DNA from: Telmatactis stephensoni
Taxonomy: Eukaryota; Cnidaria; Anthozoa; Actiniaria; Isophelliidae
Assembly: GCA_029948255.1 (NCBI GenBank)
Contig: JALIZF010001473.1
Coordinates: forward strand, 252,501 to 316,500
Length of the DNA: 64,000 nucleotides
Reading direction: 5' to 3'
Shown here: piece after piece, positions 30,631 through 63,841 of the stretch
Numbering within the stretch: the stretch's first letter is position 1
Layout of the letters: each line of letters starts with the position of its first letter
The notes under the pieces: generated by a model
The model's database searches: none
What the model was told of the DNA's origin: nothing
The model's input: the letters and a program-made list of their open reading frames with translations, nothing else
Position numbers and translations under genes: made by a program

Positions 30631-30640
30631 TGTACAGTCC

Positions 30641-38210: not shown

Positions 38211-38454
38211 CATTTACTTCCCCTTATGGTAGGTGCGACCAGCGACACCTAAGAATTTAATAATCGTTTCGGCTAATTTCGGCACATCATGTATGTGATT
38301 AGTGCACTTACGATTAGTGCATGAATTCACTGTTTAAACTACTTGCACTTACAGTAAGTGGGACTGGCGATACACAGAGAAATATTATAATCGTTGTTGC
38401 TAATCCAGGCACATAGAACTTTACACATAGTGGAACTGCACTTACGATTAGTGC
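38211..38454 (+). repeat. Left terminal inverted repeat (~244 bp)
   Basis: It begins TTTACTTCCCCTTATGGTAG and ends CTTACGATTAGTGCA. Reverse-complemented 63841-63596 matches it at about 94% by eye, including GGTGCGACCAGCGACACCTA, GATTAGTGCACTTACG and GGACTGGCGATACACAGA. It contains three copies of the GCACTTAC palindrome. Confidence 0.9.
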
Positions 38455-38634
38455 ATTATGGCTGGTTGGTAATCTTCATGACTAAAAACGGCTGCAAAGG
38501 AGACTACCAGTTGGTTCCACTAAAATGGAAAACACCATAGTTCAGTTCAGTCTTTCTGGCTTTAGACGAGGCGCCGACTATCGTCGAGCAAATGTTTGAA
38601 AAACGAATATAAAGCTTCTTTTAACAGGGTCCCT

Positions 38635-38834
38635 TATACCTTTTGCGTGAAACGTGCATGGATGATTTATTTTGACGTGAAACGTGATTTAAGGTCTAAA
38701 ATCTTTTTGTGTCCACGTGAAGCAACTTTGATATTTTTGTCAACGTGAAAGAGATTTTTTAATTATCCGTGACACGTGAAAAGACCAAATATTTTAGCGT
38801 GATTTCATTTTCCAAAGGGGTATAGGGGACCCTG
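38635..38834. mobile_element. 200-bp MITE with CAGGGTCC termini
   Basis: CAGGGTCCCTTATACC and its inverted counterpart GGTATAGGGGACCCTG bound a region with five copies of an ACGTGAAA motif. Flanks (TCTTTTAA / TTTAAAAA) are similar but not an exact 8-bp duplication. The hAT-like call comes from the CAGGG ends. Confidence 0.65.
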
Positions 38835-39914
38835 TTTAAAAAATTTCATACGGTTGACTAGTCTGCTTATTTCGACTTGGTACGTCTCTTTTTTTTAGGT
38901 CTTGGATTTTCTTTGTTATTAGTACTTTTTCTCTTTCTCTGCAGTTTCCTCACATCATCCTTGGTTTTCACAACAACCTGATGGAATGGTATCATTTCAC
39001 ATTTCACTTGTTCTGAATATCTACAGGGACGATAGCTCTTATGGCGCTTAATGAATTATGAGCAATGGTTTCTGGTCTAGGCTATCCAGCAGGTTTCTGT
39101 CCATTTTTTTGTTTACTGTATTTGGTTTTGCTAACCCATAATTTTTGGCGCGTCTGTCAATTAGCATCCGTACGTGAAAACGTACCACCAAATGATATTT
39201 GAAGTGCCTGTCACCGACAACCAATCACATGAAAGCAAGCGCTATAGAACGTCTCGCGAAAAGGACTATGTTTTGTTTAGTTGACAGTGGGAACACCCCT
39301 TTCTGATTTGTTGGGAACAGAACTTGTAACAATCATACACGCCCTAAATTTTTGTTACGTGTGTGAAATTAGCCAATCATAACAGGAGAGGAAATCATGG
39401 TAATCTCGACAGTAAGTTTACGCTCTACTTAATATAATAAGTCATTAAATATTTTTATGGCAAAATTGTTTTCAAATCATCACACGGATTTACAGGCTTA
39501 TATCTATCGGTTTACATTTTTCTTTGCAAGTTTTTAGAACTCCAAGTCTCGTAAAGGGTTTTGAACGGGGCGAAACATCATTGCTTTGAGGCAATGTAGG
39601 CTTGTTGCTGTTTGACCCGATAGCCTCAAATTGAAATATTTACTTCGAACAATGAAAGTAGCTGCAATAACTGCTGTAGGCATTTATATAAAGGCGACAG
39701 GAGATAGGTAATTCTACTTTTCACGGTTGAGGGCTATATTGTTTTTTTATCAAGAAAGTCAACAATCACATTTATATCAATGTTCGGAGCAAAACGAGAC
39801 GAAATAACGAAGCTGTTTCTAAAACTTCTTGATTATTTCGGAGTTTAACTGACCTATCTACTATTGCCTTTTAGCTCTAACAACCTATTTTGAAATAAGT
39901 GTATAAAATGAATC
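38835..39914. other. Non-coding region between MITE and DUF7869 gene
   Basis: Nothing firm is seen here: AT-rich DNA and scattered stops in all frames. Confidence 0.5.
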
Positions 39915-42275
39915 CTATTTCCTAAAACGTACCTTTGATTCTTTGCGCTCCTTTGCAAAGAGTCTCTCAATTTCCTCATGTGCTCGCGAGTCATCTGCGG
40001 TAACTGGGCAGTTGTGTGTCACCACCTTAGGGTTTTCAGGCTCAAGCAGTTTATTCCAACCCCATTCTCCTCTATGACCTTCTGGGTTGGAGGTCCGATT
40101 TCGAATACTGCCAATGTAGTCATTCCACCACTTTTCCGTTGCTCTGCTGAATTTCCTTTTATATTTTGTAATGTCGGCCTCTAGTTTATCGAGATTTATC
40201 TTTGCAATGTCCAAAGGTAGCGTTTCGGGTTCGCCATTCAAGTTTTTGACTAATTTGGCACTAAACAACGCCTTAGTTACATTCCATTTTGGGGAAGTAC
40301 TCCACTTTTTGTAGGAAAGTGTAATTGCTCCTCTTTTGTTTTTTAAGAGTTTGAATTGATGGGGATCTGAATGACCCATAACGTCGTTTTGGATTGGGTC
40401 TAACCAGTTTTTGATGTCAAACACGTGATGAATTTGTTCAACAACAGGAACTGGTTTGTACGACTCCCTGATTTCCTCTTTTAAGTCGTCAACAGTTAAA
40501 ATATCTTTTTTCCGCAACCTCTTTGAAATTCGAGAAAATAACTGGTCAATGTCCTCGTGGGTGTGGCCCACCATTAGAAACCCAAGACGCACCTGTTGAT
40601 TTTAAAAAAGAAAAAGAAAAAAATTGCATTTACAAATGATTTTGGAGGAGTATATTGTGTAGATGGCCATGATCTGATTTACCTTTTTAAATATGTCAAA
40701 ATACGCTAGTAATGCAAGGAATGACAATAAAAATCAATTTTTATTTTCTCGTCCACAGTTATCCATTTGGAGATATAGGACTGGGGGGAGCCTTCCATTC
40801 TGAAATAGATAAATACAAAAACATGTCAAACATGAATGAATGAAACCATGTCCTTTTATTTGAATGTTCAGTCTACCCCCAAACCTCTGCACAATTTACC
40901 GCACAAAAATAAATAAATAAATAAATAAAATAAAACAAAAAATCGGCCACCTTTGCTTTTTCTTTCTTCAAAACATCGAAAAGAATGTTGATGGTAAAAT
41001 TCGAATCATGAGAATATTATTTTGCATCCATGTAGCAATACGCTGAAGACCTTGCGTTCAGCAAAACTCCAGTAATATGCATCTGCAATTTCCAGAGGTT
41101 CTCATCAGCCTAATCAGTAAACAAAATATTAACTTAATATATATAGTCAATTGAAAAAACGTGGTCGGCTCTAAAAACATAGGAAGTAGAAGTTGAGACC
41201 AAAATGGTGCGTGGGATCGGTGAATAAAATAGAAACTCTTGAAATACAACAGTTCAATGTGAGAATATTGCCTTTACCTTCGGGTTTTCTGTGAAGTGTG
41301 GCAAGTGAGTTTTGTTTTGATCCATGCCATCTATAATTATTGACAAGTATTTATAAGGATCCATTTCAGCTTAAATACCATGCTTATAGTATTTCTGTCT
41401 TTCGGCCCTATTGAAAAAGTGATAAAAGATGACGAATCAAAAAACGGGCGAACAAAAAATATGCAAACGGCGAAATACTTTCTTACGTTTGCTGCACGAG
41501 GTGTACTTTTCTCATGTTGGTAAAGCGCACCCTCTTTTCTGCACTAAGCCGGGGATTCATCAACTGGTTTTTGAGGTGAACACAAACTCCACACTTTGTA
41601 AAACGTGATTGCTGCAAGAGTAATGGTCAACATGCATATTAAATAGTAAACAGTATTTATTCGGCAGCACTACTACTAGTCAACCTACATACCTCTGGTA
41701 TAACAACATCTGGAAATTCATGCTTCCACATGCCGCTTATAAAGTGTTGTCTTGACAAAAGCGGATGTACGTTTTTTCTCAACTTCATTTCTTCAACATA
41801 TAACATATGGACACCTTTCTTTGTCAAAATGGAGGTTGATTTTTCCCGTTGTTGGCATAACATCAGCCATAAGGGTAAACCTTTTCATCCATTCTTTCGC
41901 CAAGTCATAGGAAAGAGACTTTGGCTTAAATCGCTTTTCATCGACACTTTGAACTCCTTGTTTGTGAAGTTTCACAATGTCCTTGTATCTAATAAACGTG
42001 TAATATATAAATTTCTTTCATATAATCAACAAAACGTAGTTTAGTTGTAGGGTGCATGACTGAATTGGTTCAGTGGTTGCGGGTCTTATATATGGCAACA
42101 AGTATCAGAAAAAACCTAGCTTTACATTTTTCAATATAGGACTGTCTGAAATATTTACTTAAACATTACAAACCTTGTTTCTTTGATACCATAGACGACA
42201 CATCACGCTTTTCTGCATATTGGATTTGGACTTTCAATGTGGAAAAATCTACGGCCTCCCTCGGTAAAAAAATAG

Positions 42276-42310
42276 GCGTCTGCCAGACGCATGTGTCTAC
42301 AGCCTACAGT
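42276..42310. repeat. Diverged HINE-like terminus with compensatory hairpin
   Basis: GCGTCTGCCAGACGC followed by ATGTGTCTACAGCCTACAG parallels the left end of the two HINE-like copies (GCACCTGAAAGGTGC then ATGTATCTACTGCAG). The stem bases differ on both sides yet still pair. Only this end was found. Confidence 0.45.
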
Positions 42311-43799
42311 AGCTGTAAGTGAGTACTGCTGAGCATCTGTGGACCTAAACCCTGAGTGTTGAAATATGCAAGCAGACGTTTTTCATTTCTTTTCCCTTGT
42401 TTCTAACAGAACGAAGGAGTAAGATTTAAATAATCCCAAAAATTTATATGTCATACTTTGGTACTCTATGGGAAATATCAAATAAGATATAAAACATTTT
42501 TGAGAACGGACGTGATAATCACTTTATTGTGATGAACTGGAACATACATAATAAATCTAAATGATAACAATATCAAATATAAAACTTATGTAAAAGACTA
42601 TTTGTTAGAGGAAAAAATAGTCATGATATTTTAAAAGTTGAACATTGTATAAAATATAATATATACAATATAAAATAAAAAAACATTTTTGAGAACAGAA
42701 ATGATAACATTATTTCAATAAGGGATTTTCGTAGTTTTCTTCTGCTACACCTTTGTTTCGTATCGGTACTAGTTGAGGCAAATCAGCCGTCGCGTAGAAA
42801 CGCTGTCTCGCTGGTCGCAGCAGGTCAGACTTTGGACATAAACATTGACCTAAAACATGAAGAAGACTAAAAGAACACTTCATGTGAACATTTGCTGCAA
42901 TAAATGTCATGCTTCGCTTCAACATTTGATGTTTATGTACCAGTAAACTTTACTTCCCTCCAACCATGAGGTATCTTGGAAGCTCTCTCTTTAGTTGGAA
43001 TATGTGCGATATATCGGTAAAATATCGAGTCAACGGCTGAATAGCACTCATAACGTACGCCAAAAATCTTTGGTAAATGAAATTTCCTTGAATTTCTAAA
43101 GAATATTAACTTTAACTTACCTAGAACTAGTGACACCTTCGACTGCCTTTGCATGCCACGAGAGCAAAGTTGTTTGGTCGAATGCTGATTGGTTCCGAGG
43201 GATCCCAAAAATAACAATTGGGCTTCCTGTGGTGTTACAGACTTACTTACACGCACGATGACATAGTACGGTTACTGCCTCTACGAGGCTGTAGCCACAA
43301 AAACTGTTGTCAAGACTTTCAAGCATCATGTTTCTTTGTTGAGTTAAGGACTTCGACAACCAGAAATTATCTCTTTTTGTCAATGCTGATTCAAAGGGGA
43401 CCGATTTAAGACATTCCTGTGAACAGCAGGTTGTAGTTCGGAGCTCTTGATAAACTAGTTCTGCAGAAGAGTATCTTGTTCTTTTTTCGCATATATACAA
43501 TCCGCCTAAACATAACAATAACACAATAACAATATATACAATGTATTTGTATAAATTTATATTATAGGACAACCTTTCTGCAAATATCGCTATTTAACAA
43601 TTCAAGAATTATAAAGAATACCGTTTGGATTCAAAGATCAATGTACCTTTGTTTTTTTTACAGGCTTGTTTTTTGCTTCTTGTTATTTTCTAAAAGGAAT
43701 AAACCAATAGGATTGGTTACCACACTGGGCGCCTGGCTAAGTGATATTAGAAATAACTAGAGTATCGTAATTCCTTTAAACTTAACTCAAAACAACCAT

Positions 43800-43832
43800 A
43801 TTCCAGTCCATTGTATGTCAATGGACTGGAAT
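43800..43832. repeat. Perfect 14-bp-stem hairpin
   Basis: ATTCCAGTCCATTG and CAATGGACTGGAAT enclose a 5-nt loop. Function unknown. It lies between exons of the DUF7869-type gene. Confidence 0.85.
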
Positions 43833-44096
43833 ATTACCCACCAATAATGGCTTAAGAAGGCATGTAACGCTGTTGCGTTATGTCGACGTTACGTAAGATA
43901 TTTATATAGGGATTACTATGCGATCCTTTCGTCTGGATAGTATAAACACTAATTCTGCACCCTGTGATTTTAACTAATGACAAGGTAACTATCATATACT
44001 ACTTTCAAAATTCAATTCTTAAGTTATATCAAGGTCTTCAGTGTATGCTTACATGGTGGTCATCATTCGCATCACATATTGTCTCTTGATTTCGGG

Positions 44097-46042
44097 TGTC
44101 AAACTGATAAGGATCTTCATTATCTGTTTCCTGTTGCCCCTGAAGGTCATTCAAACAATATTGAGCGTGAGTCAAATTTCAGGGAAGGAAAGACTGGGTT
44201 CGCCGGCTTCCAAGGATTTTTTTTCCTTGAATTCAGACTAAACAAAAAAATGTAAAACCCTAACTTGCCTGAATTTGTGAAAGTTCTATTTCAAGTTCCT
44301 CTAAATCTCCAGAAGCCTTTTCTTTGCAATCACAGTTGTCTCCCAAACAGCTACATGCATAATCGTAATCTTCCCAGTTTTCCACATCCTGCACAACAAT
44401 TAGACCCAATTATGAGTTCTCTAAATATGAACTCTGATGTAAGCAAAAGACAAATGTTGATATTATAAAACTGTATTTACTCCGTTGTCACCTTTTGTGT
44501 ATTTCTGTAAGCTTGTATCCTGAGGTTACTGATATCCTGAATGAGAGGAAAAATACCTCAAAACAGTTCTGTGAATATCTATCAGTCAACTCATCATCTA
44601 AGCGTATATAAGTGATTTTTGGTATAACCAGTTTTAACTAACCTTTCTGTTCTGTATCTGCTGAATAAAGTTCATGTCAAGTAGGACAGCATTTGGGGGC
44701 AATACGTAACTCGAAAGAAGAAACGGAGTGAACATTAACCTGATAACTTTAAGAAGTGATCTATGAAGTCCCATTTGTCAATATGCTTCAAACAAGAAGG
44801 GAAGAGTTAATATAAGACTTCTAGTAAGGCTTTGGTGGATGCACTCTCGACGAAGAGTTAAATATTTTGAAACTAGGCGCCAAAACTAGACTCATGTGCA
44901 GTTGAGTGTACAATTGCATTTCCACTTACTATAAGTGCAATTTCAAAGGCGGAAAAAAGGCGGAAAAAAGGCAGAAAATTGAATTTGGCGTGAGTCAATA
45001 ATTTTTTTTTTGCCTTGCACTTACCATTAGTGCATTTTGTTAAATAGAAAATTAAACTGATTTGGCGGGTGTCAAACTGATAAGGATCTTCATTATCTGT
45101 TTCCTGTTGCCCCTGAAGGTCATTCAAACAATGTTGAGCGTGAGTCAAATTTCAGGGAAGGAAAGACTGGGTTCGCCGGCTTCCAAGGATTTTTTTTCCT
45201 TGAATTCAGACTAAACAAAAAAATGTAAAACCCTAACTTGCCTGAATTTGTGAAAGTTCTATTTCAAGTTCCTCTAAATCTCCAGAAGCCTTTTCTTTGC
45301 AATCACAGTTGTCTCCCAAACAGCTACATGCATAATCGTAATCTTCCCAGTTTTCCACATCCTGCACAACAATTAGACCCAATTATGAGTTCTCTAAATA
45401 TGAACTCTGATGTAAGCAAAAGACAAATGTTGATATTATAAAACTGTATTTACTCCGTTGTCGCCTTTTGTGTATTTCTGTAAGCTTGTATCCTGAGGTT
45501 ACTGATATCCTGAATGAGAGGAAAAATACCTCAAAACAGTTCTGTGAATATCTATCAGTCAACTCATCATCTAAGCGTATATAAGTGATTTTTGGTATAA
45601 CCAGTTTTAACTAACCTTTCTGTTCTGTATCTGCTGAATAAAGTTCATGTCAAGTAGGACAGCATTTGGGGGCAATACGTAACTCGAAAGAAGAAACGGA
45701 GTGAACATTAACCTGATAACTTTAAGAAGTGATCTATGAAGTCCCATTTGTCAATATGCTTCAAACAAGAAGGGAAGAGTTAATATAAGACTTCTAGTAA
45801 GGCTTTGGTGGATGCACTCTCGACGAAGAGTTAAATATTTTGAAACTAGGCGCCAAAACTAGACTCATGTGCAGTTGAGTGTACAATTGCATTTCCACTT
45901 ACTATAAGTGCAATTTCAAAGGCGGAAAAAAGGCGGAAAAAAGGCAGAAAATTGAATTTGGCGTGAGTCAATAATTTTTTTTTTGCCTTGCACTTACCAT
46001 TAGTGCATTTTGTTAAATAGAAAATTAAACTGATTTGGCGGG
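44097..46042 (-). repeat. 973-bp tandem duplication of the first exons of the DUF7869-type gene
   Basis: Copy 1 is about 44097-45069 and copy 2 about 45070-46042, more than 99% identical by eye (for example AATATTGAGC versus AATGTTGAGC). Each copy holds the first three exons (44774-44643, 44536-44492, 44388-44269; plus 973 in copy 2) and part of the fourth. The fourth exon of copy 2 is cut at TTTGACACCCG and runs into CGCCAAATCAG. Each copy also carries two GCACTTAC palindromes near its upstream end. Near identity implies a recent duplication. Confidence 0.95.
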
Positions 46043-47190
46043 AGTCAATGGTTTATTAACCATAAGTGCAAAAATGAAATTTGGCGCGAGTCGGTGATTT
46101 ATGTTTTGTATTGTCCTTACCATTAATACATTCTGTATTATTATGGGTATTATTGCTAGAGAGTGTAATCACACCATACGGTCTTGATGCTAATAGAGAT
46201 TTTGGAGAATAATGCCATACTTTTTAGTTTTTTAATTATAGCAAAGTTATTCCTAAACTGATCTAAAATCTAAATATTTCCTAAACAAAATTGAATGAAG
46301 AACTAAATGAATGAATGACGCCTTCTTTGCTGTACAAAGACATAGCCAGTTTACGTTGGCTAGTTTCTGTTCTTTTAATGATTTTTGGATAATTTTTTTT
46401 TGGGGGGTTATGTGCCATAATATTTGTCAATTGTACTGTTGGATTCCTCAGCTCACTACCTATGCTCTTCGCACGTTTCTGAACAATTTCAGTAGGTAAA
46501 ACTGAGATTTGTTGTGCGGTTTGTAGGAATATAACTTAAATGATTATTTATGCGTTATCTAAATACACTTGCGAAATAGGAAAGCTAAAGATTAGTGTGG
46601 GAAAGATCTGATATCAAAGGCACCATCTATCAGTGTACGCATTCTTAAACTTGAAGCTCGCATTTCAGCTATCAGCTGTCGTGTTTATTTGCCGTACATT
46701 AATTTGCATTGACACCACTGTCGATTGCTCAACAGAATAACCCTACTTCTTTGGGTTAATTCGAGCAGTTTGGAAACAAAAGCATTGTGCAAACTCTCAG
46801 GTGGAAACAGTTTTCTCTTTCAAAAGTGTTCTCCACACAAATAAATGCTATCATAAGTAGTTTTGAATTTCTTAACTTTGTAAAAGAACGCAAACGTTTT
46901 TGTTCGGCCGCACATGATTGTCCGTGGGACCACCCCTGGGCAATTACTACTGCCGTCTTGCTGATCTATGTTGTAACATTCCAACCATTTCCGATAATCG
47001 TATAACAGATGCACATCAAGGACGTGATGCCATAATTAGAATATGGGAAGTATTAGGATTGATCGGATACCCCTACTCAATCTCTTGAGTTTATCAGATA
47101 AAAGACCAGTTGTAAAATCGTGACGTCATTAACATTGAGTAAAAGCTAATTTAAAGGCCTTGCCCAATATTTGTAATGACGTAATTATAT
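46043..47190. promoter_or_regulatory. Divergent intergenic region between minus- and plus-strand genes
   Basis: About 1.15 kb with no supported gene. It contains degenerate palindromes near 46055 (TAACCATAAGTGCA) and 46115, two TGACGT motifs (GTGACGTCATT near 47120 and AATGACGTAAT near 47175) and, at its right edge, a TATA-like box. A bidirectional control region is the natural reading. Confidence 0.4.
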
Positions 47191-47194
47191 TCAC

Positions 47195-47285: not shown

Positions 47286-48161
47286 ATGACAGAACTTACG
47301 TGGAGATTTCAGATAATCGAAAATAATATTTATCTGCGAATCGATGAAACAGAAACAACTCTGGAGGTGCAATCAGTGACTGTACCTGTAGAAGAAGATT
47401 ATGAAGATGAACATATTGAGGTTAGTATTACACCGTTGCAAAAAATAAAAATAAAAACTCAGAAATTTAGCATTCAGCTGACACTGTAATGAAATTTTGG
47501 ACTACCTGGAAGTAATCGAAGTGAAATTGTGTTCTCAGATAGGAGCGCATTTAGCAGACTCCTAATTCTGAAATGTATTTTGCAAATTGATGCTGAGCAC
47601 AACTGTTTTGTTTTTTCAGGTACATTGTACAGGAGTTACTCAAGCAATATTCTGTCGCTCGATAATGAAACATGCGAGATTTGTAGAGATGCCAGTGCTG
47701 GCGATTTATGTAGCTCAGCCGATTTTGTGGCATTTTTTAATAAACAGAGCCCGGTGACGACCGGAACAGCCTCTCCAGATGTGACCCTGATCAAAGTACT
47801 GCAAGTGTGAGTGCAGACTACCCCAATATGGACAATATGGAATTTTGTGTCAGCAGTAAGTGTAGATTCATCTCATCTTAAGTCAATGTTCTTCTGAAAT
47901 AGTGCTGCAGTATTATATCACTTTCTGTTATGCCAGTACTCGCGAACCGATTACATCTATTTCCCTGACACAAATAAATGCCTCAAAAACACGCAAGAAT
48001 GCAAGTTTATTTACACTAGCCGGAAAACACATTTTCTTCCTTTCATGTTCTTTCAGGTCCAGAGTCTGACCGCTTTGAAATGGAAACTAGCTTCATTGCA
48101 AGCACTTTAGATGATAGTGGCATAGTGGCTACGGACCCTGACACATCATTAGATAATGATG
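47286..48161 (+). CDS. Plus-strand gene of the TIR element, 5' exons
   Basis: Exon 1 (47286-47420) encodes MTELTWRFQIIENNIYLRID and a run of acidic residues, with donor GTTAGT. A second exon starts at 47620 after TTTTTTCAG; its frame is uncertain (phase 0 reads VHCTGVTQAIF and stops at 47755). A third (48057-48161) encodes PESDRFEMETSFIASTLDDS and ends at donor GTAAGT. The next exons are separated by the Gypsy insertion, and the phases (1 versus 2) do not join directly to 58813, so either an exon is missing or this is a separate gene. Acidic, unrecognised protein. Confidence 0.45.
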
Positions 48162-48328
48162 GTAAGTTTGAAAAATAGATCTCTATGAGGCCATGTGGTT
48201 ACTGGCCCCAAATCCAAATATAGATATAGACACATTTCAAGGCCTGTCCCTAGTTCGGGGTGGGGGTAGGGGTCTACTTCGACTAGTGCATACACACACC
48301 GACTTTGTCCTAGTGCCCTTGGTAAGTT

Positions 48329-48460
48329 TATTTAAATTTCTACATAAGCAAAATGAAAAACTGAAGTACTATATAAAATGTAACAGAACTATTGAGAAAT
48401 ATAAATCATGTTCTACCTGCCTTCGCACCTTTAACTAGTAAATGTACATTGTAAACACGG
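48329..48460. repeat. Duplicated exon-intron junction segment, copy 1
   Basis: GGTAAGTTTATTTAAATTTC and the following ~130 bp recur at 58190-58320. The first ~85 bp are over 95% identical and the rest about 75%. Both start with a splice donor. The copies lie on opposite sides of the Gypsy insertion in the same orientation. Confidence 0.75.
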
Positions 48461-48648
48461 CCGGAAAACAAAATTTCGATCAAACATGTAAGTTCTGTTG
48501 AGAAATTGCCTCAACCAAATCAACAATAAACCACACTTCAAGATAATCTTGAATTTTACGAGGTCAAAAACAAGACGACGCTTGGCATTTTTAGTATTAT
48601 AATATCAATGGTAGCCCAAAGCCAAGTAGAATTCTTATCATATTAAAG

Positions 48649-48956: not shown

Positions 48957-48958
48957 TT

Positions 48959-48976
48959 TGGCGCCCAATGTGGGGC
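48959..48976 (+). promoter_or_regulatory. Gypsy primer-binding site, tRNA-Lys type
   Basis: TGGCGCCCAATGTGGGGC starts 2 bp after the 5' LTR. It matches the tRNA-Lys primer site as I recall it, with one change (T for C). Confidence 0.8.
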
Positions 48977-51350: not shown

Positions 51351-51376
51351 GTCTTGGAGAGAAGAAACGTCCCGAC

Positions 51377-51838: not shown

Positions 51839-54800
51839 AAACCAACAAGGTGAGAGTAGAATCAGATAATCCAATAGTAATCCATGCCAACGAAACCACA
51901 GTTGTTTGGTCAAAAGTTAAGACACAGAAAATTAGCTGTGTATCTCTGTGTGCCTTAGTAGAGCCTGATAGCGAAGAATTACTATCTCCCTTAGAAGTGA
52001 TCCCAACATTAGCTAGAGTGAATATGGATGGAAAGCGGAACTTTATTCCAATCAAAGTTCATAATCCTTCACCGAAAGATGTCACAATACCACCTAGAGC
52101 GGTTTTTGCTTCCCTGCAACAGGTAAGTATAGTGGGCGGGTCCGAGGAATCAGTTGAGCCAGAGCAGATTGACCCTGCAGCTTGCCAATTTGAATTTAGT
52201 GACTCACCAATGAATGAAGAACAGAAAAAAACGGCGTTGGATATGTTAGGCAAGTGGGAGAGCAGGGTTTTTGCAAGAAGTTCTAACGACCTAGGTTGTA
52301 CATCATCTGTAAAACACAAAATTCACTTGACCGATAATGTGCCATTTAAACAGCGACATCGTCGTATTCCGCCATCACAATATGAAGAAGTGCGTCAACA
52401 CTTAAAAGAAATGCTAGACTGTGGTGTAATACGTGAATCGCATAGCCCCTGGTCCTCACCCGTTGTTTTGGTACGCAAACGAGACGGCAGTTTAAGATTT
52501 TGCATAGACTTCCGAAAACTGAATTTGCGAACCATCAAGGACGCCTATTCCATCCCTAGAATAGACGAGGCTTTGGAGGCAATGGGAGGGTCTTCATGGT
52601 TCACGGTATTGGATCTAAAAAGTAGGTATTGGCAGATTGAAGTAGAGGAGGAGGACAAGCCCAAAACAGCCTTTACGGTAGGGCCGCTTGGCTTTTATGA
52701 GTGTAACAGAATGGCTTTTGGGTTAACCAACGCCCCTGCAACATTCCAACGTTTAATGGAACACTGTATGTCTGACTTGAATTTCAGGAAATGCATAGTT
52801 TATATAGACGACATCGTAGTCTACGCTAAGACATTTCAAGAACACTTAGAGAGATTAGAAGCTGTATTTGAAAGACTTGAAAGATATGGTTTGAAACTCA
52901 AGTCCTCGAAATGTTCATTCTTCCAGAATAAGGTAAAGTATTTGGGTCATGTTATTTCCTCAGAAGGAATAGAGACGGATCCGGATAAAATAGAAGCCGT
53001 TAAAAACTGGCCAATCCCAAAGAATCTAGCAGATTTGAGAACATTTCTTGGCTTCGCAGGCTACTATAGGAAATTCGTACCGAACTTTACTCGACTGGTT
53101 AAACCATTAAACGATCTGGTAACACGCATGCTCAAGTCGGGTAAGAAAAGTGAAAAGGAATGGGAATGGACGGAGGAGTGCCAGAGAGCTTTCGAACGTG
53201 TTGTAGAGATTTTGTCGTCGCCTCTTGTTCTGGGATATCCTGATTTTAAGAAACCATTTGTATTAAACACTGATGCAAGTAAGGATGGATTAGGTGCGAC
53301 ATTGAGCCAGAAAGAAGATGGGAGGGAAAAGGTGATTGCCTTTGCCAGTAGGGCTTTGCGTAAAAGCGAGCAGAACTACCCTGCACACAAGCTGGAGTTT
53401 CTTTGCATGAAATGGGCTGTAACAGAAAAGTTTCACGATTATCTGTATGGTAACACTTTTACAGTCCACACTGACAATAACCCCTTGACGTACGTAACAA
53501 CCTCTGCAAAATTAGACGCAACGGGACACCGTTGGTTAGCTGCCCTAGCCACTTACAATTTTGACATTGTGTATCGTTCAGGTAGGAAGAACGTTGACGC
53601 AGATGCTTTGTCCAGAAGACCGCACGAAGACATGTGTACCATTAAAGAGGATACTATCAAAGCCATTTCTCAGTCTTTGTCTCTGGATGGTGTTCCATGT
53701 ATTGAGAATTTTCTTGTTGACATAGATAGTATTACAGAAGAATCTGGAATTTGTTGCCAGTCTCAGACTTCAATACCTGCTTTGAGTCATGAAGATCTCC
53801 GTTCGCTGGTACAGGATGATAAAGTTCTTGCAAAGGTAAAAATGTACTTGGAGAAAGGAAGTAAGCCATCTAGAAGGGAAGCCAGGAACGAGGAAAACAA
53901 GGTATTAAGAATACTCAAATCCTGGGACCAACTTATTCTTGATAAAGGTGTTATTTACAGGCGTGGCAAAACAGGCCCTCAAGGTGAACATGTTCTACAA
54001 CTACTTGTACCGGAGAAATTGAAGAGGAAGGCTTTATCTGGAGTCCACGATGATTCGGGCCATTTTTCAGTTGAGCGCACATTAGACCTAGCTAGATCGA
54101 GATTCTATTGGCCTGGGATGGCTAAAGATGTTGAAAACTGGGTGAAGAACTGCAAGGCTTGTGTCCTACGAAAGAATCCACGTAGGGTAGCCCCTCTAGT
54201 GAGCGTGACGACATCAGAGCCTCTTGAACTTGTCTGCATGGACTTCTTAAAGCTTGAAAAATGCAAAGGAGGATATGAGAATATTCTTATAATAACTGAC
54301 CACTTCACCAGGTACGCACAGGCTATTCCCACCCTGAACCAAACAGCCAAGACAACAGCTAAAGCACTATTCAACAACTTTATAGTTCATTATGGTTTTC
54401 CAGCTAGAATTCATAGCGACCAGGGAAGGAACTTCGAATCGAAGATCATTAGTCAGTTGTGTAAAATGGCGAACATCACTAAAACGAGGACCACGCCCTA
54501 TCATCCAATGGGAAACGGTATGTGTGAACGTTTTAATCGTACATTGCTGCACATGCTGGGAACGTTGGGAAAAGAACAGAAAGCAAATTGGAAAGAATTT
54601 GTGGCACCAGTCGTTCACGCTTATAATGCAACCAAGCACGACAGTACTGGAGTCTCACCGTTTTATTTGATGTTTGGTCGCCACCCCAGATTAGCGATAG
54701 ACCTGTACTTCAGCCATGATCCTAATGCTTTTCAAGGTAAGGATGAATCAGTCTTTATTGAAGATCTACGGAAACGTTTGGATTACGCCTATAAGCTAGC

Positions 54801-55272
54801 AAAGGGCAACGCCACAACTTCATCGAGACACCAGAAAGAGATATATGATCGTCGCAGACCAACATCAGGCACGCTTGGCCCTGGTGATAAGGTACTGGTG
54901 AAAAACGTGACCCCTCAAGGGAAACTGGATAATTACTGGGAAGATGACATATATATTGTGGTAGACAAACCAAATGAAGATATTCCAGTTTATAACGTTA
55001 AACGTGAAGACGGAAAAGGACGTACTAAGAGACTTCATAGAAATCTCCTTTTGCCGTGCCCAACTTCAGGTTTGCATTCTTCACACAGTTCGTATGAGAG
55101 ACAGGAACGGACACACGATTCCGAGATGAGAAATAGACACAGCTATGAGCCATCAAATACCGAAAGTAATAGTGACTCTGAAGAAACGGATGACGAAAAA
55201 CGTACAGATAGACCACAACGTAATCGAAGGAAACCCACTTGGATGAGAAATTCAAGTTGGATCTTCTCATAG
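51775..55272 (+). CDS. Gypsy Pol: RT, RNase H, integrase
   Basis: One open frame of 1165 codons. RT: WSSPVVLVRKRDGSLRFCID, FTVLDLKSRYWQIEV, FGLTNAPATFQRLM and KCIVYIDDIVVYA (YIDD catalytic). RNase H: FVLNTDASKDGLGATLSQ and HTDNNPLTYV. Integrase: H2C2 zinc domain (HDDSGHFSVERTLDLARSRF, NCKACVLRK), then D, D, E in VCMDFLKLEK, HSDQGRNFES and NGMCERFNRTL. The tail has a GPY/F-like GPGDKVLVKNVTPQGKLDNY segment. All catalytic residues are present, so the element may still be competent. Confidence 0.95.
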   Translation: MAWRLAYQNLAHRDKKSRKALKTNKVRVESDNPIVIHANETTVVWSKVKTQKISCVSLCALVEPDSEELLSPLEVIPTLARVNMDGKRNFIPIKVHNPSPKDVTIPPRAVFASLQQVSIVGGSEESVEPEQIDPAACQFEFSDSPMNEEQKKTALDMLGKWESRVFARSSNDLGCTSSVKHKIHLTDNVPFKQRHRRIPPSQYEEVRQHLKEMLDCGVIRESHSPWSSPVVLVRKRDGSLRFCIDFRKLNLRTIKDAYSIPRIDEALEAMGGSSWFTVLDLKSRYWQIEVEEEDKPKTAFTVGPLGFYECNRMAFGLTNAPATFQRLMEHCMSDLNFRKCIVYIDDIVVYAKTFQEHLERLEAVFERLERYGLKLKSSKCSFFQNKVKYLGHVISSEGIETDPDKIEAVKNWPIPKNLADLRTFLGFAGYYRKFVPNFTRLVKPLNDLVTRMLKSGKKSEKEWEWTEECQRAFERVVEILSSPLVLGYPDFKKPFVLNTDASKDGLGATLSQKEDGREKVIAFASRALRKSEQNYPAHKLEFLCMKWAVTEKFHDYLYGNTFTVHTDNNPLTYVTTSAKLDATGHRWLAALATYNFDIVYRSGRKNVDADALSRRPHEDMCTIKEDTIKAISQSLSLDGVPCIENFLVDIDSITEESGICCQSQTSIPALSHEDLRSLVQDDKVLAKVKMYLEKGSKPSRREARNEENKVLRILKSWDQLILDKGVIYRRGKTGPQGEHVLQLLVPEKLKRKALSGVHDDSGHFSVERTLDLARSRFYWPGMAKDVENWVKNCKACVLRKNPRRVAPLVSVTTSEPLELVCMDFLKLEKCKGGYENILIITDHFTRYAQAIPTLNQTAKTTAKALFNNFIVHYGFPARIHSDQGRNFESKIISQLCKMANITKTRTTPYHPMGNGMCERFNRTLLHMLGTLGKEQKANWKEFVAPVVHAYNATKHDSTGVSPFYLMFGRHPRLAIDLYFSHDPNAFQGKDESVFIEDLRKRLDYAYKLAKGNATTSSRHQKEIYDRRRPTSGTLGPGDKVLVKNVTPQGKLDNYWEDDIYIVVDKPNEDIPVYNVKREDGKGRTKRLHRNLLLPCPTSGLHSSHSSYERQERTHDSEMRNRHSYEPSNTESNSDSEETDDEKRTDRPQRNRRKPTWMRNSSWIFS

Positions 55273-55403
55273 TAGTCAAGGCAAGTTCATTTTGTTATTT
55301 CTCTTTCAGCATCGGGTCTTCGGGTCTTCCTGAGAATGAAAGGTGAGTAACCATATTTTCCCATTTAGTAAAGAGAAGAGGAGGAAAAAAAAACAGGGAA
55401 AGG

Positions 55404-55697
55404 TGTAAGAGAGCGTAATTAGTGTGTGTATTGTATTGTTTGTTACATGTTATGTATTGTATTGTTTGTGTGTCACGTGGGTTGGGCGTATTTAACAGCG
55501 CAGCCATTCACCGGATGAGAGAATTGGGGCTCGTGGTGCAAAGTAAGAGAGCGGCGCAAAAGGCTAGACTAAAAACTCAAGAAGCACTCACTCTATTGCT
55601 CTTCGTTAAATGAAGAGGGAAAGACACCTCAAACTGGGATAACTAAGAGTTCATCTAGTTATCTGTAGAGTTATCCGTAACCTGAATAAAGAAGTTG
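55404..55697 (+). repeat. Gypsy 3' LTR, missing its last 5 bp
   Basis: Preceded by a polypurine tract ending ACAGGGAAAGG. It stops at GAATAAAGAAGTTG and runs straight into the 15-bp spacer ACATTGGGCGCCAAA. Confidence 0.9.
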
Positions 55698-55712
55698 ACA
55701 TTGGGCGCCAAA

Positions 55713-56011
55713 TGTAACAACTTCTTTATTCAGGTTACGGATAACTCTACAGATAACTAGATCAACTCTTAGTTATCCCAGTTCGAGGTGTCTTTCCCTC
55801 TTCATTTAACGAAGAGCAATAGAGTGAGTGCTTCTTGAGTTTTTAGTCTAGCCTTTTGCGCCGCTCTCTTACTTTGCACCACGAGCCCCAATTCTCTCAT
55901 CCGGTGAATGGCTGCGCTGTTAAATACGCCCAACCCACGTGACACACAAACAATACAATACATAACATGTAACAAACAATACAATACACACACTAATTAC
56001 GCTCTCTTACA
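55713..56011 (-). repeat. Inverted Gypsy LTR (299 bp)
   Basis: A complete LTR on the minus strand, from TGTAAGAGAGCG (56011) to GTTGTTACA (55713). It is followed on that strand by the 15 bases TTTGGCGCCCAATGT, identical to 48957-48971. Confidence 0.9.
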
Positions 56012-57972
56012 CCTTTCCCTGTTTTTTTTTCCTCCTCTTCTCTTTACTAAATGGGAAAATATGGTTACTCACCTTTCATTCTCAGGAAGACCCGAAGACC
56101 CGATGCTGAAAGAGAAATAACAAAATGAACTTGCCTTGACTACTATGAGAAGATCCAACTTGAATTTCTCATCCAAGTGGGTTTCCTTCGATTACGTTGT
56201 GGTCTATCTGTACGTTTTTCGTCATCCGTTTCTTCAGAGTCACTATTACTTTCGGTATTTGATGGCTCATAGCTGTGTCTATTTCTCATCTCGGAATCGT
56301 GTGTCCGTTCCTGTCTCTCATACGAACTGTGTGAAGAATGCAAACCTGAAGTTGGGCACGGCAAAAGGAGATTTCTATGAAGTCTCTTAGTACGTCCTTT
56401 TCCGTCTTCACGTTTAACGTTATAAACTGGAATATCTTCATTTGGTTTGTCTACCACAATATATATGTCATCTTCCCAGTAATTATCCAGTTTCCCTTGA
56501 GGGGTCACGTTTTTCACCAGTACCTTATCACCAGGGCCAAGCGTGCCTGATGTTGGTCTGCGACGATCATATATCTCTTTCTGGTGTCTCGATGAAGTTG
56601 TGGCATTGCCCTTTGCTAGCTTATAGGCATAATCCAAACGTTTCCGTAGATCTTCAATAAAGACTGATTCATCCTTACCTTGAAAAGCATTAGGATCATG
56701 GCTGAAGTACAGGTCTATCGCTAATCTGGGGTGGCGACCAAACATCAAATAAAACGGTGAGACTCCAGTACTGTCGTGCTTGGTTGCATTATAAGCGTGA
56801 ACGACTGGTGCCATAAATTCTTTCCAATTTGCTTTCTGTTCTTTTCCCAACGTTCCCAGCATGTGCAGCAATGTACGATTAAAACGTTCACACATACCGT
56901 TTCCCATTGGATGATAGGGCGTGGTCCTCGTTTTAGTGGTGTTCGCCATTTTACACAACTGACTAATGATCTTCGATTCGAAGTTCCTTCCCTGGTCACT
57001 ATGAATTCTAGCTGGAAAACCATAATGAACTATAAAGTTATTGAATAGTGCTTTAGCTGTTGTCTTGGCTGTTTGGTTCAGGGTGGGAATAGCCTGTGCG
57101 TACCTGGTGAAGTGGTCAGTTATTATAAGAATATTCTCATATCCTCCTTTGCATTTTTCAAGCTTTAAGAAGTCCATGCAGACAAGTTCAAGAGGCTCTG
57201 ATGTCGTCACGCTCACTAGAGGGGCTACCCTACGTGGATTCTTTCGTAGGACACAAGCCTTGCAGTTCTTCACCCAGTTTTCAACATCTTTAGCCATCCC
57301 AGGCCAATAGAATCTCGATCTAGCTAGGTCTAATGTGCGCTCAACTGAAAAATGGCCCGAATCATCGTGAACTCCAGATAAAGCCTTCCTCTTCAATTTC
57401 TCCGGTACAAGTAGTTGCAGAACACGTTCACCTTGAGGGCCTGTTTTGCCACGCCTGTAAATAACACCTTTATCAAGAATAAGTTGGTCCCAGGATTTGA
57501 GTATTCTTAATACCTTGTTTTCCTCGTTCCTGGCTTCCCTTCTAGATGGCTTACTTCCTTTCTCCAAGTACATTTTTACCTTTGCAAGAACTTTATCATC
57601 CTGTACCAGCGAACGGAGATCTTCATGACTCAAAGCAGGTATTGAAGTCTGAGACTGGCAACAAATTCCAGATCCTTCTGTAATACTATCTATGTCAACA
57701 AGAAAATTCTCAATACATGGGACACCATCCAGAGACAAAGACTGTGAAATGGCTTTGATAGTATCCTCTTTAATGGTACACATGTCTTCGTGCGGTCTTC
57801 TGGACAAAGCATCTGCGTCAACGTTCTTCCTACCTGAACGATACACAATGTCAAAATTGTAAGTGGCTAGGGCAGCTAACCAACGGTGTCCCGTTGCGTC
57901 TAATTTTGCAGAGGTTGTTACGTACGTCAAGGGGTTATTGTCAGTGTGGACTGTAAAAGTGTGACATAACAA
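56012..57972 (-). pseudogene. Inverted partial Gypsy pol (RNase H end through integrase)
   Basis: The frame (57972-56143, 609 codons) matches the last ~600 residues of the 51775-55272 pol apart from a few changes (for example GSGICC for ESGICC, GERVLQ for GEHVLQ, MANTTK for MANITK). It lacks RT and all upstream parts; homology stops at about 57962, mirroring 53453. Integrase acids are retained, but the protein is truncated and has no promoter. Confidence 0.95.
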
Positions 57973-58790
57973 CTCTTGCCCGCCGAATAAAACATCTTGT
58001 GCATCAAATTCTTTCGCTTTCGGCTCAAATCTCCAAACACAGTTTTCTAAACCATGTTTTTGAATAAAATCGATTGGACGAAAAATGAAATATTAATTCA
58101 AATTTTGGGCACCTATGCCGTGACGTGCAAATAAAGATTTGTCTACAGGTCTATTACAAATCGAAAACCTTCAAATCTTTAGACACGGTAAGTTCATTTA
58201 AATTTCTACATAAGCAAAATGAAAACTGAAGTACTATATAAAATGTAACAGAACCATTGAGAAATATAAATTACGATCAACTTACCTTGGCACCTCTAAT
58301 TACTAAAATGCACATTATAAACGCCTACGACCCAAAGCCATTGATCTATAGTAAAATATTGCCCCGTGTTTCCGTGCTTCAGTTTCCTATTTCATTCCGA
58401 ACGGCTACGTCAATACTACGTTTATCGAGAATTGATCAAACGTTTCCCCTACAGATACATTTCTGGACTAAACTGCACAGTTTGGTCTCAAACCATATAT
58501 TTACAACCACAAACCCTATATTTGATTATTAATAGTCGCCTTAAACACTCTCAGGCCGGTGCACGAAGTTCCCGTATCTTTCGGCTTGACACTTGCCTCT
58601 CCTTCGGAGATTTCCGAATTTCACCCGAAGTTTGCCCGAATTTCACTCACTCACTCACTGACTCATGGACCCGATGGCATAGTGTGTTACTGGCATTAAG
58701 CCGGTAACCACAAAAACCTTATATGACAAATACATTGGCTATACTGCCGTTTGTTTCACACAAAGTATATAATTGATTTTGAGAGCCTTT
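57963..58790. other. Non-coding flank of the Gypsy palindrome
   Basis: Contains copy 2 of the duplicated junction segment (58190-58320), a possible 39-nt exon just before it (58150-58189, between TCTACAG and GTAAGT), and a short CACTCACTCACT run near 58646. A TATATAAT box at 58766-58773 lies 40 bp before the ATG of the next gene. Confidence 0.5.
58190..58320. repeat. Duplicated exon-intron junction segment, copy 2
   Basis: Matches 48329-48460; see that entry. Starts GGTAAGTTCATTTAAATTTC. Confidence 0.75.
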
Positions 58791-58812
58791 CAGTGTTGCT
58801 TTGAGTGACGAA

Positions 58813-61800
58813 ATGGAGCAGCCTAGGCCTCCCACCCAGAAGAAAACTGCAAGGATTCCAGGTGACAAAGCTGGCAATTTGCTTTATGAGGCAGACAAAA
58901 ATGGAAATTGTCTGATTGGTCAGGATATTCCGAAGAAATCCTCACAAAACTGGCCACCACCTTTCAAAAGAACGGTATACATCTTTAGAGACATGCTGGT
59001 TAGAAAATTTGGACCGCCCCATCAGTGGACGAAAGCCTCTTGCTTGGCCCAACAAACTTATTTTTCAAGGCTACTTGAAACAGAAAAAACAAAGGTATAC
59101 TCTTCACAATCAGTTATTTTAGTCAAAAGACAATCAAAAGAATGACAATGATTTATTGGTGTCTCCAACAACAGTACTCACCATACACTCATTTGTTTGA
59201 TATTTCAGAGGGGAAGTGGCACTTTATTCCATTACTTTAAAGTGTCCCAATTATCTGCACGAAACTGGGAATTGGTGACAAGGATAATGGAAAAAATTGA
59301 AGATGGTTCCTTAAACAAGAACAAGAGAAAAAAGGAACCAATAGTCTATCAGTCGTCTTTTCATGTTATTGACCCCCTTGATAGTTTTAAACATCAGGGT
59401 CATGAGGCCATTGCACATCGTGCACTTACCGAATACCTTAATGGTAACTATGAGGGAGCCGTATCCATAGTCACAAATGAGGTTCCAAGGCCGAAGAAAT
59501 GGAAGAAAGAAACGTTTTGCAGCCTTGGGGAAGACGTAAGACTAACTTATTTCTGATGCCAGTTCTTTTCACTTCGTTTCAATTATCTGCTTGCTTGCTC
59601 TCTCTCTCTCTTTCTCTTTCTCTCAGCCTCTTTCTAAAATGTTCGAAAACGCGTCGCAACAGCTTGAAGATATCAAAACTGTAAGTATACCATGCTGTTT
59701 ATCAACTTGAAGCTTTAAATGTCAATTGACCACTTTGGTTTTCCCTCTTCTATTCTTTGTCTATTGGATTAATTAATGCCCCCAATACCTTTTGAATTAG
59801 GAAAACCAGCTTATCTGGAAAACCAGCTCGATGTGTTGTGACAACAGAACATAATACTCCAAAAGGTATGAAAAGATCGTTAAATGACGTTCCCTTCCAA
59901 CGAAATATGATAATCCTTTTACTTTCAAACGACAGGAGTGGAAGTTCTTGAAGAACAGTAACCTAAAACTTGACAAAGAAAAAGACAATTTAGAAAAGGT
60001 AAATAGTCACCTTTTTCACTGCCAATGATAGAGCAATTTTTTTAGCCGCTTTTTTCACGTTCTAGGAACTAGAGGTACTGAAACAAGACAACGCCTTTTT
60101 AAACCAAAAAAAAATGAAATCGCACGGTAATGTAGCTGATTTACGAATACCCTTTTTTAGATGCTAATAAGATATGAGCAGCAGAAAGGATTACAAGCAC
60201 AAATAAAAGGCACCTGAAAGGTGCATGTATCTACTGCAGAAGTGTTATAGAAATATTTTGACAAATGTGAAATGCTGATTGGAAAGAACTGAAACACGAA
60301 TAGCGATGAAGAATTTGATGGAGTTGGACAGGGCAGCTTGTTATTACCTCGAATGTCTTTTTGAAACGTTCGGAAAAACTTGGCAAGTGATATTTTTAAC
60401 AATGTTTTTACGTACATCAATAGAGACAGCTTTCATAGACAGTGTCATAGGTTTTATAAAAGGATTGCTAGTGTTTGTTTGGCCTTGCAATCGGGGTCCA
60501 CATGCCTTTTGAGCTCTTCGCACATACGAAGGCCATTACATTTCCTTAATAGAATATGAAATATTGTATAATGAAGTGAGTCATTTGATAATTTACATCA
60601 GCAATCGTTGTTAACTTGTTTACTGTTGCTAAAGGATAGTACAATTGCCAAAGGCTCAAACGATGATCGAGACGAACACTTCAATATTGTATTATTTACA
60701 CTCAAAAACGGCCTCAAAATTAAATAATGATTCAAAAATTCTCCATAAGAATAAACCTCACACATTCTATTACAGCTGAGCCTTATCAATTGACATAAAA
60801 ACATTGTTAAAAACATCACTTACCAAGATTTTTGACTTGAATTCCTGTCAAACTTGTCAACAGTCGTCAGTCACATGGAACTTCGTGCACACTTCGTGCT
60901 TGTCAGTTTTTCCTGAATGTTTCCGAAAGACATTCGGTCGATTCGTACGTCATTTCGTCTTTACTTGTTTGTTCCCGCGTATTTTCCGAAAATATTCCGA
61001 CTTTTCTATTGTTAACACATTTCTATTGTTAACAAGCACAGAACTTCGTGTCAGAACTCATGCATGTTCTGGTGAATACCAATATACCGTGAACTCATAA
61101 TTGGAGTGAAGCATGAAGTATATCCATTTTCAACACGATGACATAGTATCTACTGCATTCTGCAGTAGATACAAAAACTACAATGCCGGTAATGCCAGAG
61201 AAAACTGACGGTTATGTGGTTGACATTTACCAATTATGTCAGTTTATTTCCGAAATATATAGATTGAGTCTTTTTTTCTCTACAGGTTCCAAAGAAGCTA
61301 AATGAAAAGTCAACAGAAAAAGAACCAGCAAAGAAGTTACAAGAAATAAAAAAGAAGAAAAGAAGATGCGAAGAAGACTTAATGGATTTGGTAAGATATG
61401 CATTGCTTACTGCTCAATTTTAATCAGAAGTCTCAAAATACTGCAATGAATGTCCTATTCTGAAGATCTTTCTTTTTCTTTCAAGGAAACTTCATTATCT
61501 TCTATAGAAACAAAAAAGCCTTGTGGGAAAATGGTAAAGTGAATTATACAAAATATATTCTTGCATTACGGATGTAGCATGCCGCATAAATATATTTGAC
61601 GTGATATTCAAGGTGACATAACAATCGATTCGTTATCCTGGATGTTGCAGACATTTGATTTTTTGTTTCTTTTCTTTTGTTTTAAAACCAGCGTAAGACA
61701 TCTTCTAATGATGTGCAAAACGCCAGACCCGAATGGGAGGAGGAAGAAGAAAACTCAAGCGAAGTAAGTGATATCTTTATGTATATCCATCAAGTTTGTT

Positions 61801-63089
61801 TAAAGACAGGGTTGCTATTTTGCGAGCCTGTGTCTCTGCCATGCGAACGAGCCTATTTTGGCGCCAAAATATAATTTCGCGCCAAAACATTATGGTCTGG
61901 GCTAAGCTTGGCAAGAGGAAGGACGATACAATGGAGAAAGTCAAGGTGAGTTACTGTATTTCAATTTTTTAAGTTGAATTCTCTTTAGAAAATTAGTTTT
62001 TCTTTCAGTCTTTTTTTCTTTCTTTTGTCTCGGGCCACATGAAAATTGCAGAGATTTTGTTTAGCTAATATGCGGAATTATGGAATGTATACTGCATGGC
62101 TATATAAAAGCACCAGTCATGCGGTATGATAATGCAGTCAAATAATCGTTCGTGCTCATCCCTCAAATGGGTATTTAGCACACCTTGCGCGATGACATTT
62201 TAATTAGTAAAAGTATGAATTTTGAAGGACTACTTCCCTCTTGCCAAACTAAGCCTAGACCATAATTTACATGTTTTGGCGCAAATTATATTTTGGCGGG
62301 ACAGAAGGATCGTGGCTCGCATAATTTCAAAATTAACTTTTACTAATTTTGGTGTGCTCTTTTCCAATATTATATTTAATATTATAATATTATAAATATT
62401 TAGTTTTTGTTGGACAAAATTTTCACGGTGATGGAGGAAACGTAATCATGTTTTCATGTCGGGCCTATTAAATAAAATCTATTTAAATCTACTGAAAGAA
62501 ATATCTCAAAAATTCAGCAATTGTACATATTGAAGACGCGCAAGAATAGGCTCGTGGCTCGCATCAGTACAGAAGCACGGGCTGGCAGACTCCCACTTCA
62601 TTTTCTCTCGCCTCAACAAGAGACACTGAAGAAGTAAACTCATCACAGATTGATGTTAATGTATTTGTAGGTAATACAGCAAGTTGGGAAGGAAAAAACA
62701 GAAGAACAAAAATTAAGACTTCTTAAGTCTCTTTAATAAACTGAAACGGTTCATTTTCTCAACAGGATTATAAGGATGGGAAGCTAACGCTTTGCATCGG
62801 CCAAGCAGTGGCAGTGGCATACGACAAAACGTTTTTTTTGGGAATAATGAAAGAGCTGGAGGAATGGCCTGTCATAGACTTTCTAAGAAAGGCCGGTCCG
62901 AAGTCCGACCCCAGCCGTTACAAATATCCCAAGCAAAAAGATGTTGTCGATGTTGACCCCACATATATATTTGATTGCGTCAATTACATAAGAGATGGGG
63001 ATATTTTTTGTTTTAGTAATATTGAAGAAATCCATACTAAATATCTCAAATATCAAGCACGCTACATGAAGCCACTTAAAGATCATTGA
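58813..63089 (+). CDS. Plus-strand gene of the TIR element: novel N-terminal domain, coiled coil, small C-terminal domain
   Basis: Exons: 58813-59094 (MEQPRPPTQKKTARIPGDKA, FKRTVYIFRDMLVRKFGPPH); 59209-59535 (RGSGTLFHYFKVSQLSARNW, HQGHEAIAHRALTEYLNG); 59627-59680; 59936-59998; 60066-60126; 61286-61390; 61486-61533; 61692-61763; about 61906-61945; 62766-63089. Except around the intron after 60126, joins are phase 0 with good GT-AG sites. The middle small exons form a charged coiled coil. The last exon (DYKDGKLTLCIGQAVAVAYD, KTFFLGIMKELEEWPVIDFL) resembles the compact beta-rich domains at the C-termini of transposon accessory proteins. That call is by pattern only. Total about 460 residues. The phase mismatch after 60126 coincides with a HINE-like insertion, so one exon may be lost. 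Confidence 0.55.
60203..61178 (+). mobile_element. Putative non-autonomous Helentron (HINE-like), copy 2
   Basis: Same termini as copy 1: hairpin GCACCTGAAAGGTGC (60210-60224), GTATCTACTGCAGA (60227-60240) and 3' hairpin (61146-61172). About 90% identical to 22771-23664, with an extra ~80 bp near 60880-60970 (CACACTTCGTGCTTGTC region) absent from copy 1. It lies in an intron of the plus-strand gene. Confidence 0.65.
61808..62600. repeat. Nested inverted repeats overlapping an exon
   Basis: 61854-61921 (GGCGCCAAAATATAATTT...GGTCTGGGCTAAGCTTGGC) is mirrored at about 62225-62300 (GCCAAACTAAGCCTAGACC...AAATTATATTTTGGCG). A further arm (TGCGAACGAGCCTATT near 61838) is mirrored near 62555 (AATAGGCTCGTGGCTCGCA). 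The short exon ending at 61945 lies in and beside the left arm. Confidence 0.6.
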
Positions 63090-63595
63090 GATATTTTAAA
63101 ACTGCAAACAAATTCTTTTCCGCACACCAAACAAAGTTTTCGAATATTTGTTCTACTTGGTGGTGGGCTAGGGCACTTTGGCATCTAACCAGAGTTAATT
63201 ATGCGAACTCTGACCTGCAATTTGGTTTTTCGCTTCCGCCCACCAAACAACCAACCAAAAAAATACACATAAAGAACACTCAAACCTATCAAATCACTTA
63301 AAATGATCTGTCGACAATCTGTAACAGCTAAATATATTTTAAGTATTAGTTAGGTCTTCGTATTTTTTATCTTTCATTTTGATTGACGGAAGCTAATTTG
63401 GTGAAAGCATTTGAGTGTTTAGATAAGATGTTGAGGTCGTTGAGCAAACTTATAGACTTATGGAATTTATTCACATGGTTTTAAAAATCGCAGTAAAGTG
63501 AGAATTTAGATCAACTCTGAAGAAGTTCCCACCTACCGTGAGTGCAAGAAAACATTAATCATAAGTGCAGTTCAAGTACACAATGTTTAAACAGT
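63090..63595. other. Downstream of the plus-strand gene, no gene
   Basis: Contains two palindrome halves (CCGTGAGTGCAAG near 63536; TCATAAGTGCAG near 63558). Otherwise unremarkable. Confidence 0.5.
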
Positions 63596-63841
63596 GAATT
63601 CATGCACTAATCGTAAGTCCAGTTCCACTATGTGTAAAGTTCTATGTGCCTGGATTAGCGACAACGATTATAATATTTTTCTGTGTATCGCCAGTCCCAC
63701 TTACTGTAAGTGCAAGTAGTTTAAACAGTGAATTCATGCACTAATCGTAAGTGCACTAATCGCATACATTGGCCGAAATTAGCCAAAACGATTATTAAAT
63801 TCTTAGGTGTCGCTGGTCGCACCTACCATAAAAGGAAGTAA
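63596..63841 (-). repeat. Right terminal inverted repeat (~246 bp)
   Basis: Inverted counterpart of 38211-38454. It contains CACTAATCGTAAGTGCACTA, CCACTTACTGTAAGTGCA and CACTAATCGTAAGTCCAG. Homology ends at GGAAGTAAA; the flank (ACCAAACATT) differs from the left flank. Confidence 0.9.

Follow-up and report, generated by a model that had tools for sequence, protein, structure and literature searches.

A large two-gene transposon with long terminal inverted repeats and DUF7869 as its probable transposase in Telmatactis stephensoni

Introduction

Among eukaryotic DNA transposons, PIF/Harbinger (PHIS) elements combine a transposase with a second gene, Pfam has models of the Harbinger and KDZ transposases, and a match to the rve integrase model marks Ginger, IS3EU, IS481EU and Polinton elements. 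Target duplications, as given in excerpts of the literature, are of 4 bp in Ginger1, usually of 6 bp in IS3EU, whose ends read TA..TA, and absent or of 1-4 bp in PHIS elements (all PMC10045372); in Sola2 families they are of 4 bp, AWWT and similar (PMC3627910). Here we analyse a stretch of 64,000 nucleotides from Telmatactis stephensoni (contig JALIZF010001473.1; hereafter the window), in which a gene with the Pfam domain DUF7869 and a second, divergent gene lie between long terminal inverted repeats (TIRs). The locus is very likely an old, interrupted copy of a large two-gene transposon, of about 15 kb when intact, with DUF7869 as its probable DDE transposase. The Sola elements (Sola1-3) are likewise eukaryotic, make 4-bp duplications and have a transposase of the DDE type proposed here.

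This reading would give a mobile-element role to DUF7869, an abundant Pfam domain of hitherto unnamed function, and the copies, the duplicated target sites and the reading frame that the insertion interrupts together define a two-gene, long-ended transposon. The palindrome common to its ends and its promoter region leads to a specific and testable model of self-regulation.

Results and discussion

An earlier note on this DNA had proposed a TIR transposon ending in two inverted repeats of about 245 bp, at 38211 and 63841. Both repeats are present (BLASTN of the window against itself: 38213-38456 against 63842-63602, 244 columns, 95.9%, E 3e-108), but each forms just the inner portion of a longer TIR. 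Homology runs outward from them in a copy on contig C212, whose TIRs measure 1.39 kb (1,385/1,396 bases aligned, 98.2% identity), and at both ends of that copy the alignment reaches window position 36982. The left TIR of the window locus thus covers 36982-38456 on the plus strand (outer part 36982-38064, inner part 38213-38456), with the terminus AACAACTGCCG; similarity in the flank at 37.05-38.2 kb, which could have been a neighbouring older element, is this outer part. The right TIR, which might have been taken as truncated, is split: its inner part lies at 63602-63842 on the minus strand, a 10,173-bp retroelement nest follows from 63843, and its outer part resumes beyond the window at C498:326516-327601. 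The element therefore starts at 36982, ends 11.1 kb past the window edge, and occupies C498:289482-327601, or 38,120 bp including inserts. The copy on C212, bounded by AACAACTG and CAGTTGTT, is 15,140 bp long, which agrees with the size of about 15 kb that had been estimated by subtracting insertions.

We searched the genome to which the window belongs (483.5 Mb, 1,782 contigs), and since only the best candidates were scored, all match counts are lower bounds. The inner TIR had at least 8 matches (a pair in the window, a pair on C679, two left and one right on C212, and a single one on C50), seven of them in inverted pairs, and the outer TIR at least 7, with six paired in inversion and one alone. 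A short miniature inverted-repeat transposable element (MITE), scattered mostly singly, had been named as the outcome that would overturn the proposal; with 7/8 and 6/7 of the matches paired, such an origin of the repeats was rejected. All four ends compared (window left, C212 left, C212 right and C50) share the start AACAACTGCCGAAATAAATC, and the right end of the window locus is its mirror image, so that TIRs with fixed ends recur in several copies, as in a DNA transposon of cut-and-paste type. These matches are not all separate insertions. C679 is 98.0-99.7% identical to the window locus and its flanks, without positions 48650-57959 and without a tandem duplication; we infer that it is the other haplotype, and the two are therefore counted as one insertion. 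The C212 copy is a second, independent insertion. C50 is a third, of which a single end is seen, no other end having been found within the 30 kb fetched.

The C212 copy is flanked on both sides by AAGT, a 4-bp duplication without mismatch. The junctions of the window locus read ATTATTCAA|AACAACTG...CAGTTGTT|TGAAGTACTG, and the left target duplication TCAA (36978-36981) has the partner TGAA, with one mismatch, at C498:327602-327605 beyond the window. When 4 bp are dropped from the right flank, one open frame runs across the junction (..DICTDMNYS^STDVNIFSETRFSQ..), which it does not with 0, 3 or 5 bp (lengths tried 0, 3, 4 and 5); this test fixes the length modulo 3 only, and 1 or 7 would also restore the frame. 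Given the restored frame, the pair TCAA/TGAA and the exact AAGT duplication at C212, a length of 4 bp is the simplest reading, and both complete insertions (2/2) fit it. The earlier note had asked, in support, for several copies that share ends and gene content and have a duplication of constant length, and the TIR transposon it proposed is borne out in this respect.

The second claim of that note, a minus-strand gene with DUF7869, holds as well: the exon at 40601-39915 matches the domain with E 1.7e-37. The gene spans approximately 38868-45650 in about 12 exons, and both genes point outward, away from about 45-47 kb, as had been noticed. The proposed catalytic residues lie in three of its exons, namely the first D in IIIDGMDQ (41278-41407), the second D in LQMDN (40683-40799) and the E in HTHEDIDQ, in an exon that also holds the C-terminal half of DUF7869 (39933-40592). 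In this D..D-x38-E arrangement the E is kept in 39/39 aligned rows and the second D in 14 of the 15 rows that cover it; which D of IIDGMDQ is the first catalytic one is inferred. All three acidic residues, as expected of a DDE/RNase H transposase, are present in C212. The window gene is broken by 3 in-frame stops, seen against homologues, and by one frame change, and it contains about 1 kb (42273-43298) that is absent from C212; since one C212 frame runs unbroken there, this is probably an insert within an exon. The DUF7869 exons seen in C212 are open, the anchors and joins of the first exons being only partly resolved. Over the two exons compared, window and C212 differ by 3 silent and 6 replacement changes (ratio 0.52, from small numbers).

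Four joined C212 exons match positions 1-191 of the 192 of DUF7869 (E 9.8e-81), and at E<=1 this was their only Pfam match, with no rve, Harbinger or KDZ transposase domain. In this the protein differs from several described groups. PIF/Harbinger is set apart by the missing Harbinger match, although PHIS duplications are compatible with 4 bp, KDZ elements (Zisupton and kin) by the missing KDZ match and Polinton by the missing rve-type integrase match. Ginger1/2, IS3EU and IS481EU form an integrase-like DDE group, of which Ginger1 also duplicates 4 bp, and DUF7869 again has no rve match; IS3EU differs further in the ends and duplications given above, this family having AA..TT ends and 4 bp. There is likewise no sequence match to the retroviral integrase catalytic core, to IS21 IstA or to a chain of the Tn7-like transpososome (assumed to be TnsB), and a sequence search against solved structures gave 4 matches at E<=10, the best with E 0.36. 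A structural model suggests that DUF7869 may have an integrase-like fold, and it is probably the DDE transposase of the two-gene lineage. It is improbable that DUF7869 is a passenger, with the cutting done by the second protein or by a transposase encoded elsewhere: the second protein has no recognised family or usable model, which leaves room for such a role, but it is DUF7869 that has conserved acidic residues at DDE-type spacing and a predicted integrase-like fold.

Beyond this genome, a protein search with DUF7869 gave 38 matches, of which 1 had a named animal source, the coral Oculina patagonica, and on that count the database seems thin for animals. Among viral contigs, 44 stretches fitted a pattern, none of them encoding a DUF7869 relative. 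Literature searches gave no match for the term DUF7869 and no DUF7869-type element named in the titles or abstract starts of related searches; for the motif HTHED, all the matches listed were unrelated.

The plus-strand coding sequence, described earlier as of unknown family, belongs to a second gene at 47286-63089 for which homologue and Pfam searches likewise gave no recognised family. N-terminal exons within 47286-48161, which are open in C212 and lie upstream of the coiled-coil exons that had been described, are followed by nine open exon segments (58804-59094, 59209-59535, 59627-59680, 59936-59998, 60066-60125, 61286-61390, 61486-61533, 61692-61763 and 62766-63089). GT and AG signals stand at all their inner boundaries but one: the fifth segment has an uncertain donor on its 3' side (60125), and its end is uncertain. 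In the window, Gypsy insertions separate the N-terminal part from the rest and a frame change is deduced against C212, while in C212 one exon of the gene contains an indel of a single base. The two copies differ by 10 silent and 19 replacement changes, with a ratio of replacement to silent proportions (pN/pS) of 0.47; the numbers are small and cover eight of ten exons, those for which a full gapless alignment was obtained. Judged by eye, the protein starts with an acidic part, its middle is basic and resembles a coiled coil, and its C-terminal region is conserved in C531, a relative discussed below. A query of 444 amino acids found no homologue at E<=0.001 among the 7,995 scored candidates sharing most words, and one of 206 amino acids none at E<=10 among 60 candidates; against Pfam at E<=1 there were sub-threshold matches only (best E 0.037). 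The model of the C-terminal exon, from two sequences, is poor, with a predicted local distance difference test (pLDDT) value of 38.2.

Between the divergent genes lies a centre (44922-46129) that we propose as a shared control region. It has 5 sites of a 17-bp palindrome, GCACTTACCATTAGTGC, counted within 4 mismatches, and all other sites in the window belong to the left TIR or lie within or next to the right inner TIR; in ten single-base shuffles of the window there are 0-2 sites. C212 has 23 sites, of which 10 lie within or next to the left TIR, 4 between the gene starts (7409-7632) and 9 within or next to the right TIR, against 0-2 in 40 dinucleotide shuffles. Because the consensus was derived from these same sites, the shuffles overstate the rarity of the palindrome, and its informative feature is its placement. 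No exact match to a 19-base stretch containing the palindrome was found in the viral contigs. In the window, the first exons and the centre are duplicated in tandem at 44087-46048 (44087-45075 and 45058-46048, 99.5%), a segment that is single in C679 and C212.

Relatives are abundant in the same genome, where the DUF7869 exon has at least 102 matches (best 150 candidates scored). Outside the family of the window and C212, long surroundings were read for two of them, on C531 and C374. The C531 element has TIRs of about 1.65 kb (90%), starting with AACAACTGCAG at the left and TCCAACTGCAG at the right, a rightward DUF7869 gene of 49% identity and leftward exons that match the second protein at 36-49% among the matches listed; 15 variants of the palindrome stand within or close to its TIRs, the centre has none, and no clear target duplication was found at its ends. 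From this likeness we regard C531 as representing a diverged family in which TIRs again enclose the divergent gene pair. Both genes are also found on C374 (second protein 36-38%), along with one weak palindrome site and a faint stretch resembling an end (E 0.002) that lacks the first 11 bases; the element there runs into the contig end. The partner gene is thus present in 2/2 relatives and visible TIRs in 1/2. Further DUF7869 matches, at 29-32% to the window copy, fall into groups of equal score (C368, C278, C330 and C323; C234, C353, C477, C798 and C899), which suggests further multi-copy families or haplotypes.

Both genes have several exons, and these are more conserved than their surroundings, as might be expected of host genes at a non-mobile locus whose inverted repeats come from a MITE unrelated to them or arose by chance as an inverted duplication. 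We consider this highly improbable: the same ends and genes occur at independent places with 4-bp duplications, the insertion lies inside a reading frame, and the arrangement is repeated in the diverged family on C531.

If the locus is a copy of a two-gene DDE transposon, the DUF7869 enzyme (D..D-x38-E), with its putative integrase fold, would cut the element's ends and join them, 4 bp apart on the two strands, to the target DNA. The second protein would act as its partner, probably helping in DNA binding or end pairing, and the palindrome, for which we derived the symmetrised form GCACTTAYNRTAAGTGC, would be bound by one or other of these proteins as a dimer. Because the palindrome stands both in the two TIRs and between the two promoters, one site could serve end recognition and self-control of expression.

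The classification is a separate matter. It is a serious though tentative possibility that the element belongs to an already named eukaryotic DDE superfamily, most likely Sola; it would then be a large member with two genes and long TIRs, and DUF7869 would be the only name under which Pfam has its transposase. The 4-bp duplications fit those reported for Sola2 and also for Ginger1, Repbase lists Sola1-3 (excerpt of PMC4455052), and since the domain is so abundant, a repeat library has probably met it. Sola elements differ, as far as the published passages go, in size, TIR length and duplication bases: AAGT and TCAA/TGAA contrast with the AT-rich AWWT and similar of Sola2, and an element of 15 kb with 1.4-kb TIRs contrasts with the mean of 5,445 bp given for curated Sola1 of bivalves (excerpt of PMC10294476), both weak arguments. 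The lineage may be a new superfamily. Our fuller proposal, to which we give somewhat less than even confidence, is that DUF7869 serves as transposase in a so far undescribed superfamily whose members are large two-gene elements with an integrase-fold DDE enzyme (x38 spacing), a regular divergent partner gene, TIRs of more than 1 kb with arrays of the 17-bp palindrome that recur at the shared promoter, and 4-bp duplications, and that many animal DUF7869 genes are mobile copies or their descendants.

The window copy carries several later insertions. The Gypsy element noticed earlier is real, with long terminal repeats at 48645-48971 and 55400-55715 and pol domains in 51724-55272. It occupies 48645-55715 on the plus strand and is followed by a partial Gypsy in inverted orientation, which extends from 55698 to about 58092; C212 lacks 48176-58711. 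Ahead of pol, the frame at 49947-51350 has a Pfam match to PNMA (E 2.2e-11), and this domain is a relative of Gypsy gag. Should C679 represent the other haplotype, only one of the two haplotypes has the Gypsy stretch and the tandem duplication; in C679 the matching blocks are separated by 173 bp, so that it does not provide a clean empty site. The Gypsy stretch is flanked by a direct repeat of 137 bp (88%; 48321-48456 and 58187-58322), which is also matched in C679 and lies inside the stretch that C212 lacks. Another insert of about 0.97 kb (60207-61172, plus strand), which the earlier note had called a HINE, shares sequence with 22770-23669 and is absent from C212. The nest in the right TIR (C498:316343-326515) has split direct repeats of 211 and 195 bp (98%), as is typical of DIRS/Ngaro-like elements, and from these and its frames we read it as a tyrosine-recombinase retroelement with a Gypsy-like pol.

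The site into which the transposon inserted has a history of its own. From a resemblance, the interrupted reading frame is taken to be a Helentron endonuclease, and Pfam Helitron_like_N matches at 27393-28562. Three layers are nested at 26000-36981: a Helitron/Helentron-like element, interrupted by a BEL/Pao element (28493-34849, with 169-bp direct repeats of 96%) and then by the present transposon.
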